34,933 bases of DNA from Chloroflexota bacterium (GTDB taxonomy: Bacteria; Chloroflexota; Dehalococcoidia; Lucifugimonadales; Lucifugimonadaceae), in the NCBI GenBank assembly GCA_029262735.1, contig JAJCYY010000051.1, positions 1 to 34,933 of the forward strand. The letters are read 5' to 3'. This document shows, one piece after another, positions 17,984-34,904 of this stretch. The notes beneath the pieces were generated by a model. The model did no database searches. It was not told the origin of the DNA and worked only from the letters and a program-made list of their open reading frames with translations. Made by a program: the position numbers and the translations under genes. Each line of letters starts with the position of its first letter. Position 1 is the stretch's first letter.

Positions 17984-19327
17984 ATGACTGCTCCCGTCCG
18001 CGTCGTCCACTTCCTGAACCAGTTCTTCGCCGGTATCGGTGGGGAAGAGATGGCGAACTCACCGCTTGAGGTCCGCGAGGGCGCAGTCGGTCCGGGGCGC
18101 GCCCTTCAGCAGCAGTTCGGAGACCGGGCAACCATAGTCGCCACCGTTTACAGTGGCGATAACTGGTTCACCGAGAACCCGGACGCCGCGACTGCCGCCC
18201 TCCAGAAGGCATTTGCAGAACATAAGCCCGATGTCGTGATCGCAGGTCCGGCATTCAACGCTGGCCGCTACGGACTTGCATGCGGGCATGTCTGTGCTAC
18301 AGCCGGGGAACAGGGAATTCCGTCCGTCACAGCGATGTTCCCGGAGAATCCAGGCGTCCTGGAGTACGACACCAGCGCCTACATCGTCCCGACCGGCACA
18401 TCCCCGGCGGACTCTCCCGGAGTGTTCGATTCACTCGCCCGGCTGGCGCTGAAACTGGTATCCGGCGAGGCTCTTGGACCGGCTGAGACCGAAGGCTACC
18501 TGGCCCGTGGCATCAGGCGGCCGGGTCTCAGAGAGCATTCTGCATCACGCCGCGCAGTAGACATGCTGGTCGCCAGGATGACGGGCAATGACTGGACGAC
18601 TGAGCTGCCGATCCGGGCCCCGGATGCGGTCACTCCGGCTGATCCGCTCCTCCAGATCGGAGGCGCGAATATCGGCCTCGTGACAACCGGTGGACTTGTT
18701 CCCAAGGGCAACCCGGACAGGCTGGTCCGCGGCGGCGCGAAGGACTACTTCAAGTATTCGATATCTGATCTCGACTCTCTCAGCCCGGTCGACTGGGAGA
18801 GCGTGCACCGCGGCTTCTACACCCTGACGGTGAACGAAAACCCCAACTACGTCCTGCCGTTGGACACGGTTCGCAGCCTTGAGCGGTCCGGTGTTATCGG
18901 CTCCGTTCACCCGTGGTTCTACACGACCAGCGGGGTTGGAACGGCGGTCGCCGAGTCACGCAAGATTGGCGCCGGTATCGCTGCCGAACTGCGGGAGGCA
19001 GGTGTCGACGCCGCCCTCCTGGTCGCCACCTGAGGGACCTGCAACCGTTGCGGCGCAACGGTAGCGAAGGAGATCGAGCGGGCGGGTATCCCCGTCGCCA
19101 TGATCTCCGCCATCTACTCTCTCGCACTCACCACCGGCGCACCACGCGTCATCAAAGGCGGCCGCATCGAACATGTCTGCGGCGACCCTTCACTGGGTCC
19201 CGAAAAGGACCGCGAGTTCGGGGAGCGAATTGTGAAGACGGCGCTGAACGCGCTTGGCACGGCCGTGACCGAACCTACGCTGTTCGACCCGGTCAAGCTC
19301 CAGGAAGCTGAAGTAGTGACGGCTTGA
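17984..19327 (+). CDS. grdB: GrdB-like selenoprotein 1 (glycine/sarcosine/betaine/D-proline reductase family, component B)
   Basis: This 447-residue protein has TGA at 19031-19033 read as Sec350. GrdB carries the Sec that attacks the substrate held on the pyruvoyl group of GrdE. Family motifs are VVHFLNQFFAGIGGEE, GAVGPG, GDNWFTEN, the strongly conserved DVVIAGPAFNAGRYGLACG, ENPGV, EGYLARG, GLVPKGNPD and the redox motif ATUGTCNRCGATVAKEIERAGIP. The 98 residues after the UGA continue the family (LTTGAPRV, HVCGDPSLGPE), so this is not a termination. A hairpin follows the UGA (19044-19062). It is followed after 25 bases by grdE1, its obvious partner. Substrate unknown. Confidence 0.93.
19044..19062 (+). 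promoter_or_regulatory. Candidate SECIS hairpin of grdB1
   Basis: ACCGTTGC/GCAACGGT form a perfect 8-bp stem with loop GGC. The stem starts 11 bases, and the loop 19 bases, after the UGA. The loop begins with G. Relative to the other two grdB genes, one base pair is swapped on both sides (C-G for T-A). Confidence 0.75.
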
Positions 19328-22117: not shown

Positions 22118-23452
22118 CTAAAAGGGTTCAAAGAGAGTCGGCTCGGCAACCGCGGTGGTCAGTGACTCGAGAGCCTTTTCCACTATGACCGTGCCGAACT
22201 GCAGGTCCTCATCAGGCGAGAGCCTGGGGTTGCCGCAGACATGCTCGATACGCGTTCCCCGGACGACCCGCGGAGCGCCGGTTGTGAGTGCAAGGCTGAA
22301 CAGGGCCGAGATCAGCGCCACCGGAATGCCCGCCCGCTCGATCTCCTTCGCTATCGTTGCGCCGCAACGATTACAGGTCCCTCAGGTGGCGACCATCACG
22401 ACGGCATCCACGTTTTCCTTCTCCAGCTCAGCGGCCATCTCCTGGCCCATGCGCTCTGAGTCGGCGACCGTGGTGCCGCGGCCCGAGGTTGCGAAGTACT
22501 CGTGGTGAATCGACTCGATCACTCCACGGTCTTCCAGCGTTCGCATGATGTTCAGCGGCAGCACATAGTTCGGATTACCGTTCGTGATATCGGTGAAGAA
22601 GCCAACATGGATAGACTCCCACCTACCGGCCTCCATGCTCCGCAGGTTCCCGATCTCGTACTTCAGCCACACCTGTGACGGTCCGCCGGGCAGGTGATCC
22701 GGATTGCCGATTGGCACCAGCCCGCCCGCAGTCACCAGCGCGATCTTGGCCGTTGTCAGGTCACGTAGCGGAGTGGCAGGCTCGATCTGGGACGGCAACT
22801 CTATCGGCAGCTCCGTCTCGAACGGCTCGCCCTTGACCTTGGCGAGAATCATGTCGATAGCCCGCTCTGCCGCCGGCTTCTCCCGGTGTCCCGCTTTGCG
22901 AATGCCGCGTCCCAGGTAACCTTCTTCGGAAGCCGGTCCGAGCTCCTGTCCGTCGGCCAGCTTCAGCCCGATTCGGGCGACTGTCGCAACAGCCTCGCTC
23001 ATGCCTGCGACGCCCTCGCTGGTCGGGACGATCACGACTTCCGGCCGGTGCGTCAGCGTCCCCGGGTTCTCGTTGAACATCGCCGTCACGGCCGGGATTC
23101 CGTCCTCGTATGCGAGATAGCACACCTCAGTGCAGGAAAGACCGTAGCGGCCCGCGTTGAACGCAGGACCGGCAATCACGAGGTCGGGACGGTAGTGCGC
23201 CAGCGTCTCGACGACAGTCCGCCGTGAGACCTCAGACTCCTCGTTGAAGTAGTTGTCTCCGGCCACGATAGTCGCAACTATCTCCGCCTTGCCGTCGAAC
23301 GCTTTCAGGAACGCGTTGCCGGGGCCGACCGCCCCCTCGCGCACTTCGATCGGATAGTTAGCCGATTCTTCCGAGCCGACACCAGCGAAGAACTGGTTCA
23401 GAAAGTGGACCACCCTCACCGGCTTCACCGCACCGCTATTTTCGTCTGACAT
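22118..23452 (-). CDS. grdB: GrdB-like selenoprotein 2
   Basis: This 444-residue protein has TGA at 22384-22382 read as Sec357. It shows the family core: VRVVHFLNQFFAGVGSEE, REGAVGPG, GDNYFNEE, DLVIAGPAFNAGRYGLSC, NENPGTL, EEGYLGRGIRKAG, GLVPIGNPDHLPGG and ATUGTCNRCGATIAKEIERAGIP. The frame continues 87 residues with LTTGAPRV and HVCGNP to PTLFEPF. Without recoding it would lose the redox motif and the C-terminal domain. A perfect hairpin follows the UGA (22353-22371). It follows grdE3 by 36 bases and precedes grdE2. The proteins B1-B3 share the architecture but diverge elsewhere, so they are old paralogues, not recent copies. Confidence 0.93.
22353..22371 (-). promoter_or_regulatory. Candidate SECIS hairpin of grdB2
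   Basis: On the minus strand ATCGTTGC/GCAACGAT form an 8-bp stem around loop GGC, 11 bases after the UGA. It is identical to that of grdB3, and carries a T-A pair where grdB1 has C-G. Confidence 0.75.
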
Positions 23453-24861: not shown

Positions 24862-26181
24862 CTATCCCCTCACCGGCTCGAACAGCGTCGGTTGATCGAC
24901 CTCCGTGGTCAGGGATTCCAGGGCGGTCTGCACGATGCTGCGCCGGAACCGCCTGTCCCTTTCGGGGCCGAGAGACGGATCACCGCAGACGTGCTCGATG
25001 CGTGCGCCTCGGATGACCCTGGGCGCGCCGGTCGTGAGGGCGAGGCTGAAGAGAGCAGAGATAACGGCCACCGGAATGCCGGCGTTCTCGATCTCCTTGG
25101 CTATCGTTGCGCCGCAACGATTACAGGTCCCTCAGGTGGCGACCAGCAGAGCGCCGTCAATATTGTTCTTCTTGAGATGCTCGGCCATCTCCTTGCCGAT
25201 TCGCCGTGAGTCGCTGACGTGGGTTCCCACGCCGGACACGCTCAACATCTCGTCATGCACACGCTCGACACCGCCCGCGTCCTCGATCTCCCGCATCACA
25301 TCGAGCGGAGCCGCGTAGTTCGGATTTTCGTTGGTGATGCCGACGTAGAAACCGCGGTGAATCGACTCCCAGTCCGCGGCCTCAAGTGTCGGCAGACCAC
25401 CGACGTCATACAGCCACCAGCTTGTCGAGCCGCCTCGCACCTGCCCTTCCGGGTTGCCTTTCGGCACGACGCCGCCCGAGGTCATCATCGCGATAGACGC
25501 CTTCGATAGATCGGCAATTGGCGGAGCAGGTGTCGCAACATCAGGAACGTCGATCCTTAGCTCAGTCGTCCACGGAGCGTCGGTCAGGCGGGCCACAAGC
25601 ATGTCGCCTGCTCTTGTCGCAGCGGACGCATACCGCTCACCCTCGCGCCGGATGTCACGCGGGAAATATCCGTCCTCAGCGGCCGGGCCGAGCTGCTGCC
25701 CCGAACCCAGCTTGACTGCGAGACGCGCCAGCGACCCCAGCGCGTCTTCCATGCCCTGCACCTCTTCGGAACATGGGACGATGACGACTTCGGTCCGGTG
25801 TGCCAGGACTCCCGGATTCTCCTCGAACATGCTCGTGACGGCGGGAATGCCGAGCGACTGTGCGATCTCGCAGACGGCTCCGCTGGCAAGGCCGTAACGA
25901 CCGGCATTAAACGCCGGACCGGCGATCACAACATCGGGCGATGCCGCTTTGATGGCGTCGTTTATGGCGCTTGAAGACTCGTCGACGTTCTCCGTCACCC
26001 AGTTATCACCGGCAACCAGAGTCGTAGTGATGTGACCTTCGTCGCCAAGCAGCGCGTCGATGCGCCTGCCGGGGCCGACCGCGCCATCCGTGACAGACAG
26101 CCCGATATTGGCGTGTTCCTCGCCGCCCTGCCCCGCGAAGAACTGGTTGATGAAGTGGAGGACTCGTAGTTGTTCAGGCAT
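24862..26181 (-). CDS. grdB: GrdB-like selenoprotein 3
   Basis: This 439-residue protein has TGA at 25134-25132 read as Sec350. Motifs are LRVLHFINQFFAGQGGEEHANI, DGAVGPG, AGDNWVTENVDES, DVVIAGPAFNAGRYGLASG, ENPGVLAHRTEV, EDGYFPRDIRREG, GGVVPKGNPEGQ, ATUGTCNRCGATIAKEIENAGIP and then LTTGAPRV, HVCGDPSLGPE and PTLFEP. It follows the DppC-like permease gene by 30 bases with AGGATAGGA upstream of the ATG, so reductase and importer share a transcript. A hairpin identical to that of grdB2 follows the UGA. Confidence 0.93.
25103..25121 (-). promoter_or_regulatory. Candidate SECIS hairpin of grdB3
   Basis: The same 8-bp stem ATCGTTGC/GCAACGAT and loop GGC as in grdB2 lie 11 bases after the UGA, although the surrounding gene has diverged. 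Confidence 0.75.
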
Positions 26182-33119: not shown

Positions 33120-33533
33120 CTACTTTTTGGGCTTTTCCGCCTTGCTCCTGTACGTGCCCTCCTCGAACAGGTCTTGCCCCTCAGGCACCGCCTCGTCAAT
33201 CGTCTGGGCAAACTCTTCCCCGGACTCGAATTGGCGAAGAAACTCTTCGCTTACGAAAAACATTCATATACAGAAGCCGTCTCTGGCGATGTCCTCGTGA
33301 TGCCGGTCACAGGGACAGATCTTCTTGCGATCCTCAACGGGATCGCCGCTCAAGGGCATTCAGGGACAGTAGCGGTAGCCTTGAATTCGCTCATTGTCCG
33401 CCAGTCCCTTCTGGACCACCTCGACAACCTCTGCCTCGGGGAAGAATTCGTACTGACCACGTTCGACATACTTCTCTGAGAACGAAACCGCCCGCTTCAG
33501 CGCCTCCGCCTCGGTCAACTCCCGTTTAGCCAT
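33120..33533 (-). CDS. ftrC: Ferredoxin-thioredoxin reductase catalytic subunit with two selenocysteines (U58, U90)
   Basis: Reading both in-frame TGAs (33362-33360 and 33266-33264) as Sec gives 137 residues. The pattern Cys56-Pro-Sec58, Cys73-Pro-Cys75, Cys88-Ile-Sec90 matches FTR's CPC...CPC...CHC. In Synechocystis FTR, the first, third, fourth and fifth Cys bind a 4Fe-4S cluster; the second and sixth (Cys57, Cys87) form the active disulfide. Here the four ligands remain Cys and both redox positions are Sec, predicting a diselenide. The N-terminal KRAVSFSEKYVERGQYEFFPEAEVVEVVQKGLADNE helices also fit FTR. The ATG has GGAG eight bases upstream and overlaps the preceding gene by eight bases. 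A hairpin follows each UGA. Likely role: ferredoxin-driven reduction of redoxins. The variable subunit is not in the window. Confidence 0.9.
33234..33250 (-). promoter_or_regulatory. Candidate SECIS hairpin for Sec90 of the FTR subunit
   Basis: On the minus strand GCGAAGA and TCTTCGC form a perfect 7-bp stem around loop GTT. The stem starts 14 bases, and the loop 21 bases, after the second UGA, exactly as for the first UGA. The loop begins with G. Confidence 0.75.
33327..33346 (-). promoter_or_regulatory. Candidate SECIS hairpin for Sec58 of the FTR subunit
   Basis: On the minus strand GCGATCC and GGATCGC form a perfect 7-bp stem with loop CGTTGA. The stem starts 14 bases and the loop 21 bases after the first UGA, and the loop has G at position 2. 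Confidence 0.75.
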
Positions 33534-33921
33534 GCTCAGTCTCCGTTGGTTCTGGTGGTTCCATGTTATTAGCCAGGTTCGATCGCATCTTCCGGTGCGT
33601 CGAACAGGACATCGACTTAAATCCGCGGTACTGGAGGCTCAATCTGTCGACTATCTGCGGCAGAGCGACAATCAACTCGCTGCGCGTCTTCGACTGTTCC
33701 ACCTCTACGGACAGTACGGCAGCGGTCTCGCACGTGCACGAGACTCCGAACCAGACCTTCAGTGCGGAGCCAGGCAGCGCCGAACCCGGCGGTCCGGCAA
33801 TCGCCTCGGGAGCCCGCAATGGCCGGAGCGTACCGGCGAGGTCAGGGTCCTGTCTCTCTGCCTCGGACCGAACCTGAGCTGAAACCCACTCCTGCGTTAC
33901 CGCTTCGGTGTCGCCCATCAT
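33526..33921 (-). CDS. Unknown protein between thiD-like and Sec-FTR genes
   Basis: A 131-residue protein. The ATG at 33921 overlaps the stop of the thiD-like gene (ATGA), and its own stop overlaps the FTR start by eight bases, so it is in the middle of a tightly coupled operon. I recognise no family. It has an N-terminal helical part (TQEWVSAQVRSEAE), a Pro/Gly-rich loop, then ALKVWFGVSCTCETAAVLSVEVEQ with a Cys-x-Cys pair, and SMSCSTHRKMR. Three cysteines near the C-terminal half could bind metal or act as redox sites. The coupling suggests a role in FTR assembly or use (inference). Confidence 0.65.
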   Translation of the reverse strand: MMGDTEAVTQEWVSAQVRSEAERQDPDLAGTLRPLRAPEAIAGPPGSALPGSALKVWFGVSCTCETAAVLSVEVEQSKTRSELIVALPQIVDRLSLQYRGFKSMSCSTHRKMRSNLANNMEPPEPTETEHG

Positions 33922-34745
33922 GCTCCATACCCGCGGTCGCCACCTGCCGCCCACCATGCGTGGAGCGGGTTGACCGCAACAGCACCGTTCTTGAGCTCAA
34001 ACCCGTTCAGTGCCGTGTCCGTTGCGAACATCTTCGCCACCGCCACCGACTCCTCGGCAGACCGGCCTTCATAGGTCAGTCCCGCCGCGATCGCCGCAGC
34101 AAACGAAGCGCCGATTCCCTGCAAGGACGACGCCTCCACCTTCTCGCTCGGCAGGTCCATGTATTCGATGCCGTCGAAGAGGTAATCGACCACCTCCCCT
34201 TCTTCGAACTCACCACCGGTGACAACTACGTACTTTGCGCCCAGCTGGTGGATCAGCTTGCCGCCAGCCTTCATACCCATCGGGTTCCGGATGCGCACGC
34301 CGGTAATGGCCGAAGCCTCAGCGATGTTCGGCGTCGCCACCATAGCCAGGGGAAGCAGGTCGGCCTTCAGAATCTCCCGAATGCCTGCCAGGCCTCCCGA
34401 TTCGTCATCACCTTCATATTCGACAGGGTCGACGACGATGTTCACAAGCCCGTGCTCTCGGATCTTCGAGACGACGGTTTTGGCAATCTCCTCGGAACAC
34501 AGGCTGCCGGTTTTTACCGCCTGTACGTTCACATTTTCGAGAGCTGAGTCGATCTGTGCAGCGACCTGTTCCAGCGTTAGAGGCAGGCAGGTGATGCCGG
34601 ACTCGGAGCGACTATAGAGACCCGTGATCGCGCACGTTCCGTGAACGCCAAACGCGCCGAAAGCCTTTAGATCGGCCTCGACGCCGTCCGACCCTGTCGG
34701 ATCAGACGCTCCGATTGTTAAGACCGCTGGAAACTCTGATCGCAT
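33918..34745 (-). CDS. thiD: ThiD-like hydroxymethylpyrimidine kinase family protein
   Basis: This is a ribokinase-fold kinase related to HMP/HMP-P kinase of thiamine synthesis. Seen are AVLTIGASDPTGSDGVEADLKAFGAFGVHG (substrate-binding GSD..G...ADLK), QAVKTGSLCSEE, IVVDPVEYEGDDESG (usual DPV...SG), TPNIAEASAITGVRI, YVVVTGGEFEEGE and SSLQGIGASFAAAIAAGL. The normal GTGC anion-hole motif is GIGA here, so the Cys is absent and the Thr is Ile. Catalysis or substrate may therefore be altered. ATG 34745 gives the family-typical start; the frame is open 18 codons upstream. It is the first gene of the operon ending in the Sec-FTR. Confidence 0.8.
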   Translation of the reverse strand: MRSEFPAVLTIGASDPTGSDGVEADLKAFGAFGVHGTCAITGLYSRSESGITCLPLTLEQVAAQIDSALENVNVQAVKTGSLCSEEIAKTVVSKIREHGLVNIVVDPVEYEGDDESGGLAGIREILKADLLPLAMVATPNIAEASAITGVRIRNPMGMKAGGKLIHQLGAKYVVVTGGEFEEGEVVDYLFDGIEYMDLPSEKVEASSLQGIGASFAAAIAAGLTYEGRSAEESVAVAKMFATDTALNGFELKNGAVAVNPLHAWWAAGGDRGYGA

Positions 34746-34904
34746 ATTTTTATCTGTTTCTCCGCAAGGGTTCCGCATGGCACTCGTCGGACAGCGCACT
34801 ACTCTACTTGAATCTTGTCAGGGAGTGGTTCTGTTGGCATGGTCGCAACGTGAAGTGCAACATCGTCTACTCGTTCTCTACAGGCGACGCGACCCTCACC
34901 CTGG

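Follow-up and report, generated by a model that had tools for sequence, protein, structure and literature searches.

A predicted double-selenocysteine ferredoxin-thioredoxin reductase chain in Chloroflexota and its conserved neighbor orfX

RESULTS

Three overlapping genes, one with two in-frame UGA codons

The window analyzed here, the whole stretch of 34,933 nucleotides taken from a Chloroflexota genome (assembly GCA_029262735.1, termed G000 herein), holds on its minus strand a ThiD-like gene, a small gene that we call orfX, and a gene for a ferredoxin-thioredoxin reductase (FTR) catalytic chain of the double-selenoprotein type (Table 1). Each of these genes overlaps the next, and the three are likely on a shared transcript. 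The FTR frame starts with ATG and ends with TAG, and reading it confirmed the original prediction that it is interrupted only by TGA codons, exactly two of them, at codons 58 and 90. With both read as selenocysteine (Sec, U), the translation is MAKREL...RYCPU(58)MPLSGDPVEDRKKICPCDRHHEDIARDGFCIU(90)MFFVSEEF...KK, followed by the stop.

With both UGAs read as Cys, the protein matched the Pfam family of FTR catalytic chains (PF02943) at 79.9 bits (gathering cut-off, 22), and the window FTR matched the NCBIfam model NF041072, "FtrB family double-selenoprotein," at 222.8 bits (curated cut-off, 160). An AlphaFold model with Cys in place of Sec reached a pLDDT of 87.5, and the 13 best Foldseek matches to it were all FTRs or ferredoxin disulfide reductases (7pwe, 4tpu, 7bzk, 1dj7, and others), with E values of 1e-6 to 1e-3 (1.2e-4 for 1dj7). 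Alignment with the solved chains 4tpu and 7pwe placed codons 58 and 90 at the second and sixth Cys of the CPC-CPC-CxC motif, and the remaining four places are all Cys (C56, C73, C75, and C88). From the FTR literature we take motif Cys 1, 3, 4, and 5 to be the cluster ligands and Cys 2 and 6 to be the redox pair, with Cys 6 interacting with the cluster. Both the assignment to the FTR catalytic subunit and the claim that UGA falls exactly on the two redox positions, with Cys at every ligand, were thereby upheld.

Table 1. Features of the window discussed in the text
Feature	Position	Strand	Remarks
ThiD-like phosphomethylpyrimidine kinase (PF08543)	33918..34799	minus	overlaps orfX start; ends at TGA
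orfX, conserved small partner gene	33526..33921	minus	invariant CxC and CxxH; spans FTR start codon; longest ORF start 33957
FTR catalytic chain, double-selenoprotein type (FtrB_double_U)	33120..33533	minus	137 aa; U58 and U90
In-frame TGA, codon 58	33360..33362	minus	second motif Cys (redox); reading and alignment to 4tpu and 7pwe
Predicted bacterial SECIS stem-loop for UGA58	33327..33346	minus	GCGATCC-CGTTGA-GGATCGC; 7 bp; 13 nt past codon
In-frame TGA, codon 90	33264..33266	minus	sixth motif Cys (redox); reading and alignment to 4tpu and 7pwe
Predicted bacterial SECIS stem-loop for UGA90	33234..33250	minus	GCGAAGA-GTT-TCTTCGC; 7 bp; 13 nt past codon
FTR stop codon TAG	33122-33120	minus	
GrdB-like gene with in-frame TGA	17984-19071		VATUGTCNRCGA; SECIS_4 match
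GrdB-like gene with in-frame TGA	22344-23452		VATUGTCNRCGA; SECIS_4 match
GrdB-like gene with in-frame TGA	25094-26181		VATUGTCNRCGA; SECIS_4 match

Distribution of the double-UGA form

Eight of 60 relatives, the window genome included, hold the protein, each with exactly two TGAs; the seven other holders are 67 to 74% identical to the window FTR, and two more relatives hold only a distant Cys FTR. GTDB species genomes were scanned with a probe consisting of the 31 residues between the two UGA sites, which is blind to both positions, and the 153 pattern matches yielded 55 confirmed loci, every one of them TGA/TGA and titled Chloroflexi, Chloroflexota, Dehalococcoidia, or SAR202. The NF041072 cut-off was exceeded in 45 of 250 genomes sampled from the order and in 26 of 393 sampled from the class, and all of these (45/45 and 26/26) showed two TGAs and no other internal stop; the relatives, the GTDB scan, and the order and class samples overlap one another. 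One additional genome of the order sample (G156) gave split partial NF041072 matches and is perhaps frameshifted. In the phylum sample, PF02943 was matched in 35 of 400 genomes. The original prediction had argued that this is not a random nonsense pair, and the recurrence of the same two TGAs across relatives, including all 55 blind-probe loci, bears this out; the relatives have UGA at both codons, with no pattern of unrelated codons or frameshifts.

Order-wide genome searches found neither the FTR nor orfX in the six same-genus genomes (G001 to G006), an absence that may reflect loss, transfer, or incompleteness; the estimated contamination of the window assembly is 6.26%. Among public records, nine double-U FTRs (P0002 to P0010) are printed with W at both Sec sites. 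Two metagenome proteins of the double-U family, P0011 and P0012, have Cys at position 58, so Sec58 seems dispensable; their chains end right after the residue preceding site 90. P0013 has S58 and P0014 a gap over site 58, and both end after FCI.

Predicted SECIS stem-loops and Sec decoding machinery

The stem predicted for UGA58 was paired in 309 of 322 cells (96.0%; 46 distinct sequences) versus 14 to 46% in slid controls, and that for UGA90 in 297 of 301 cells (98.7%; 43 distinct sequences) versus 32 to 69%. The apical loop has GT in 48 of 55 sequences at UGA58 (GA in 7) and in 55 of 55 at UGA90. In a codon alignment of 55 distinct sequences, synonymous changes drop sharply at codons 63-64, 67-69, and 95-100, as exemplified by Leu99 (CTT in 55/55), Glu97 (GAG in 55/55), and Glu67 (GAG in 55/55). 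Among codons whose residue is present in at least 48 of the 55 sequences, the mean synonymous entropy ratio was 0.33 in 13 stem codons versus 0.93 in 45 others (Mann-Whitney p 4e-7), with windows that were chosen after the stems had been seen; in a circular-shift control, 1 of 58 shifts was as low, namely the real register. The stems are embedded in conserved coding sequence, so that both partners of a pair are changed in just two cells, both of them at UGA90; the pattern is thus one of constraint and not of covariation. Minimum free energies were moderately low relative to synonymous shuffles (mean z of −1.26 for UGA58 and −1.49 for UGA90). By conservation and pairing, then, a stem-loop with the predicted function of a SECIS element lies close after each UGA. 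The Rfam SECIS covariance models matched at neither of these UGAs; within the window, SECIS_4 matched only at the three GrdB-like genes, with scores of 32.0 (under the gathering score), 43.3, and 43.5 bits (both over it). These GrdB-like genes lie close to two PF09338 genes, two similar-looking ORFs, and one SBP_bac_5 gene.

Of the Sec machinery, whose absence would have spoken against the original prediction, three components were found in G000: tRNA-Sec (contig C47, 68.5 bits; gathering score, 47; next best in G000, 49.0), SelB (contig C9, 337.8 bits; cut-off, 242.25), and SelA (contig C13, 543 bits; cut-off, 267.9). The tRNA-Sec cut-off was also passed by 5 of 14 control genomes, so this test is weak when taken alone and the margin matters. 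For tRNA-Sec, 18 of 20 genomes were over the cut-off, and for SelB likewise 18 of 20; genomes lacking the FTR were among them. SelA was over the cut-off in all eight double-U genomes of the first set and in G609 (549 bits). In a further set of 80 genomes, hand-picked among those of known FTR state, it was over the cut-off in 24/26 genomes with double-U FTR, 18/20 with FTR2-U, 8/8 with FTR3-U, 13/18 with FTR2-Cys, and 4/8 with FTR3-Cys (subfamilies described below). The two of these 26 double-U genomes without selA over the cut-off were G277, which is 71% complete, and G165, which has a partial match.

orfX accompanies the double-U FTR

Profile searches assigned orfX to no Pfam or NCBIfam family. 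By ORF clustering of 56 loci (55 loci plus the window), a homologue lies just upstream of the FTR in 43; in an alignment of 42 of these 43 sequences (one was dropped for X residues), C62, C64, E73, K78, F101, C106, and H109 are invariant, and the resulting CxC...CxxH pattern points to a likely metal site. Among the 250 genomes of the order, orfX was found in 45 and the double-U FTR in 46 (45 over the cut-off plus G156): 45 of the 46 double-U genomes have orfX (the exception is G166), and none of the 204 others does. The two genes share a contig in 44 genomes, the exception being G164, with a weak match on another contig. Over all fetched double-U loci, a redundant set, orfX was present in 93 of 127 and on the same strand in 92. 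Among the loci where it was not seen are those of the early-branching double-U clades, several of which have only about 1.5 kb of upstream sequence in view. A word-limited search of 5.8 billion proteins gave 57 homologues, the window's own included. The structure model of orfX had a pLDDT of 84, and a structure search with it returned no trustworthy fold match. It is likely that orfX works with the double-U reductase, and we propose that it is an accessory or a client of that enzyme.

FTR subfamilies with a single UGA

Weak NF041072 matches containing one TGA led to two further FTR subfamilies, FTR2 and FTR3. In FTR2 ("CHU"; loci L130-L147, L153-156, L177-178, and L214-253 except Cys members such as L218, L242, and L250), the one in-frame TGA is at the sixth motif Cys only, and the same position alone is TGA in FTR3 ("CYU," ACYU/TCYU; L254-L261), which we call rubredoxin-type for its C-terminal likeness to 4tpu (...LPLPVWRC). 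One FTR2 and one FTR3 protein scored 45 to 51 bits with NF041072; no other NCBIfam model matched these two proteins, and none was over its cut-off. The converse arrangement, with TGA confined to the second motif Cys, occurs in a single genome (L304, G609:C292), where the UGA is followed by a stem-loop resembling that of UGA58; this locus is the sole TGA case in the 7 genomes outside the class among the PF02943 matches of the phylum sample. With U allowed at all six Cys, 174 distinct motifs were collected (CCCCCU, 67; CUCCCU, 57; CCCCCC, 49; CUCCCC, 1), and in none of them does UGA fall on a ligand Cys. The loci were picked by FTR matches, partly for having TGA, and many FTR2 matches were not fetched; the motif proportions are therefore not prevalences.

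FTR2 offers a within-family control. Codons +6 to +9 are frozen in its 57 UGA members (Gly GGT in 53/57, Glu GAA in 43/44) but free in its 28 Cys members (Gly GGT in 2/28); the UGA members have a common stem of 4 to 5 bp, whereas the Cys members have none, and the mean z of the minimum free energy is −1.39 versus −0.59. This comparison is the best evidence in our analysis for Sec decoding in FTR2. The eight FTR3 sequences are too few for a synonymous-site test. On one contig (G273:C120; L266 and L176), a double-U FTR adjoins a Cys FTR2 on the opposite strand.

A quick tree of 152 rows (near-copies were dropped, L304, P0011, and P0012 were left out, and public rows required the full Cys motif) placed the double-U sequences on one side of a branch with an SH-aLRT of 99 and implied at least 8 changes at position 6 and one at position 2. 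In a more careful tree of 84 rows, the double-U sequences together with P0011 and P0012 had a support of 100/98, starred branches forced at least 5 changes of the Cys label, and L304 sat on a long branch with unsure placement. These change counts cannot separate gain from loss, and the 128 columns limit resolution. Constraining all U6 rows to one clade was rejected (p 1e-72), as was a single FTR2-U clade (p 0.001); a single FTR3-U clade was not rejected (p 0.40). Judging from the single-U families, selenium seems to bring the greatest benefit at the cluster-facing place; L304 shows, and P0011 and P0012 imply, that the two redox places can be exchanged separately.

DISCUSSION

We consider it probable that the window gene encodes an NF041072-family FTR chain in which both UGAs are decoded as Sec and a selenium pair beside a predicted 4Fe-4S cluster moves electrons from ferredoxin to a disulfide partner. 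Sec would be inserted at both UGAs through SelB and the SECIS elements, and the cluster would be bound by C56, C73, C75, and C88. By analogy with Cys FTR, ferredoxin would reduce the cluster and the first electron would open the predicted Se-Se bond; Sec58 may then serve as the exchange group that attacks the partner disulfide, while Sec90, which is expected to face the cluster, could stand in for the thiolate that Cys FTR attaches to its cluster in the one-electron intermediate, and the second electron would let Sec90 release the product. The diselenide itself is likewise predicted by analogy. A thioredoxin-fold protein is the most likely partner, and family membership points to thioredoxin as the possible substrate. 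The plant-type variable subunit (PF02941) was found in none of eight double-U genomes, G000 included, under a search that was positive in the control, Synechococcus elongatus. This fits a statement in the available part of PMC9025218 that the subunit is exclusive to oxygenic phototrophs.

A wider reading, which we put forward tentatively although we rate it nearly as high as an even chance, covers the full Cys/Sec series: Cys at both redox positions, C-U (FTR2 and FTR3), U-C (one Chloroflexota genome), and U-U, arising by repeated exchanges and never at a ligand. Selenium would here have been selected as the cluster-attaching group of the one-electron step, with a selenolate bound to the 4Fe-4S cluster in the intermediate, and the double-U form would have orfX as a dedicated partner that is as yet undescribed.

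The same double-Sec Fe-S enzyme might instead serve a client other than thioredoxin, either orfX or another oxidized partner (a selenoprotein or a metal or chalcogen compound), and would then share the chemistry of FTR but not its physiology. The co-occurrence of orfX with the double-U FTR in the order (45 of 46 genomes against 0 of 204, on the same contig in 44) speaks for this, and G000 has a thioredoxin-reductase-like flavoprotein (262 bits, under the cut-off of 343), so thioredoxin may be served otherwise. Against it, the early-branching double-U clades yielded no orfX, which therefore cannot be the sole client. We regard a non-thioredoxin client as rather unlikely, though worth keeping in view.

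Readings that dispense with Sec altogether fare much worse. The W printed at both sites in P0002 to P0010 is what a table 4 gene caller would give, and a code 4-like reassignment of UGA to tryptophan would turn the motif into CPW...CIW; but Cys is invariant at position 58 and at least 90% at position 90 among 58 aligned proteins (TGA entered as C; 51 are hand-picked public proteins), synonymous sites hardly vary after either UGA and, within FTR2, are frozen in the UGA members alone, the genome has tRNA-Sec, SelA, and SelB, and the neighboring ThiD-like ORF terminates at TGA. A tryptophan reading is accordingly very improbable. That the gene is decaying through two nonsense mutations might be thought from its absence in all six same-genus genomes, yet the same two TGAs, with no other inner stop, recur in every genome over the cut-off across families of the order and class, and both the protein and its synonymous sites are under constraint; we give decay hardly any credence.

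First predicted in 2008 from a single metagenomic read, the double-Sec FTR now has its own NCBIfam model. Natural homologues with predicted Sec at none, one or the other, or both of the redox positions form a series that would allow comparison of what selenium buys beside an Fe-S cluster, and orfX is a first lead to a physiological partner of the double-Sec form. Together with orfX and the single-Sec reductase lineages, the double-U FTR could allow the reason for selenium use to be tested directly. In some public records Trp is entered at both Sec sites or the chain stops at the UGA, so single-Sec forms may be misannotated too.

Comparison with known systems

The original prediction knew of no described example, a claim that fails on NF041072 (FtrB_double_U) and on the accessible portions of PMC2398784, PMC13188914, and PMC9312934, all of which already have a double-Sec FTR. 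In the part of their paper available to us, Zhang and Gladyshev (2008; PMC2398784) report two FTR selenoprotein sequences, one of them a GOS ocean read with two predicted Sec exactly at the redox-active Cys and a SECIS-like element. A 2026 review (PMC13188914) enters the double-Sec FTR in a table as CxU with 2 Sec, and PMC9312934 lists it as well, each as seen in excerpt. The literature searched, itself accessible in part, yielded no biochemical study of a double-Sec FTR. By the curated cut-off and by Sec predicted at both redox Cys, the window FTR is like NF041072 and the GOS read and differs from them in nothing of kind; what is new is the many genomes, the codon-level constraint after both UGAs, the partner gene, and the phylogeny.

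With the plant and cyanobacterial FTR catalytic chain (PF02943; 1dj7 and 2puk), the window FTR has in common the fold, by model and Foldseek, and the CPC-CPC-CxC motif. That chain has Cys at both redox positions and pairs with the variable subunit PF02941, whereas the window FTR has UGA at both. The closest solved structures by sequence and fold are 4tpu (Methanosarcina) and 7pwe (Desulfotalea, glutaredoxin-fused), which by alignment also have Cys at both redox positions, unlike the window FTR, and are longer chains (173 and 196 residues, respectively) with a further domain (rubredoxin by the molecule name of 4tpu, glutaredoxin by the title of 7pwe). Another comparison is with SelL, which Shchedrina is said to have presented in 2007 as a selenoprotein family with a diselenide in its redox motif. 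As in the window FTR, two Sec are proposed to form one redox pair; SelL has them as UxxU in one short motif and without an Fe-S cluster, whereas those of the window FTR are 32 residues apart.
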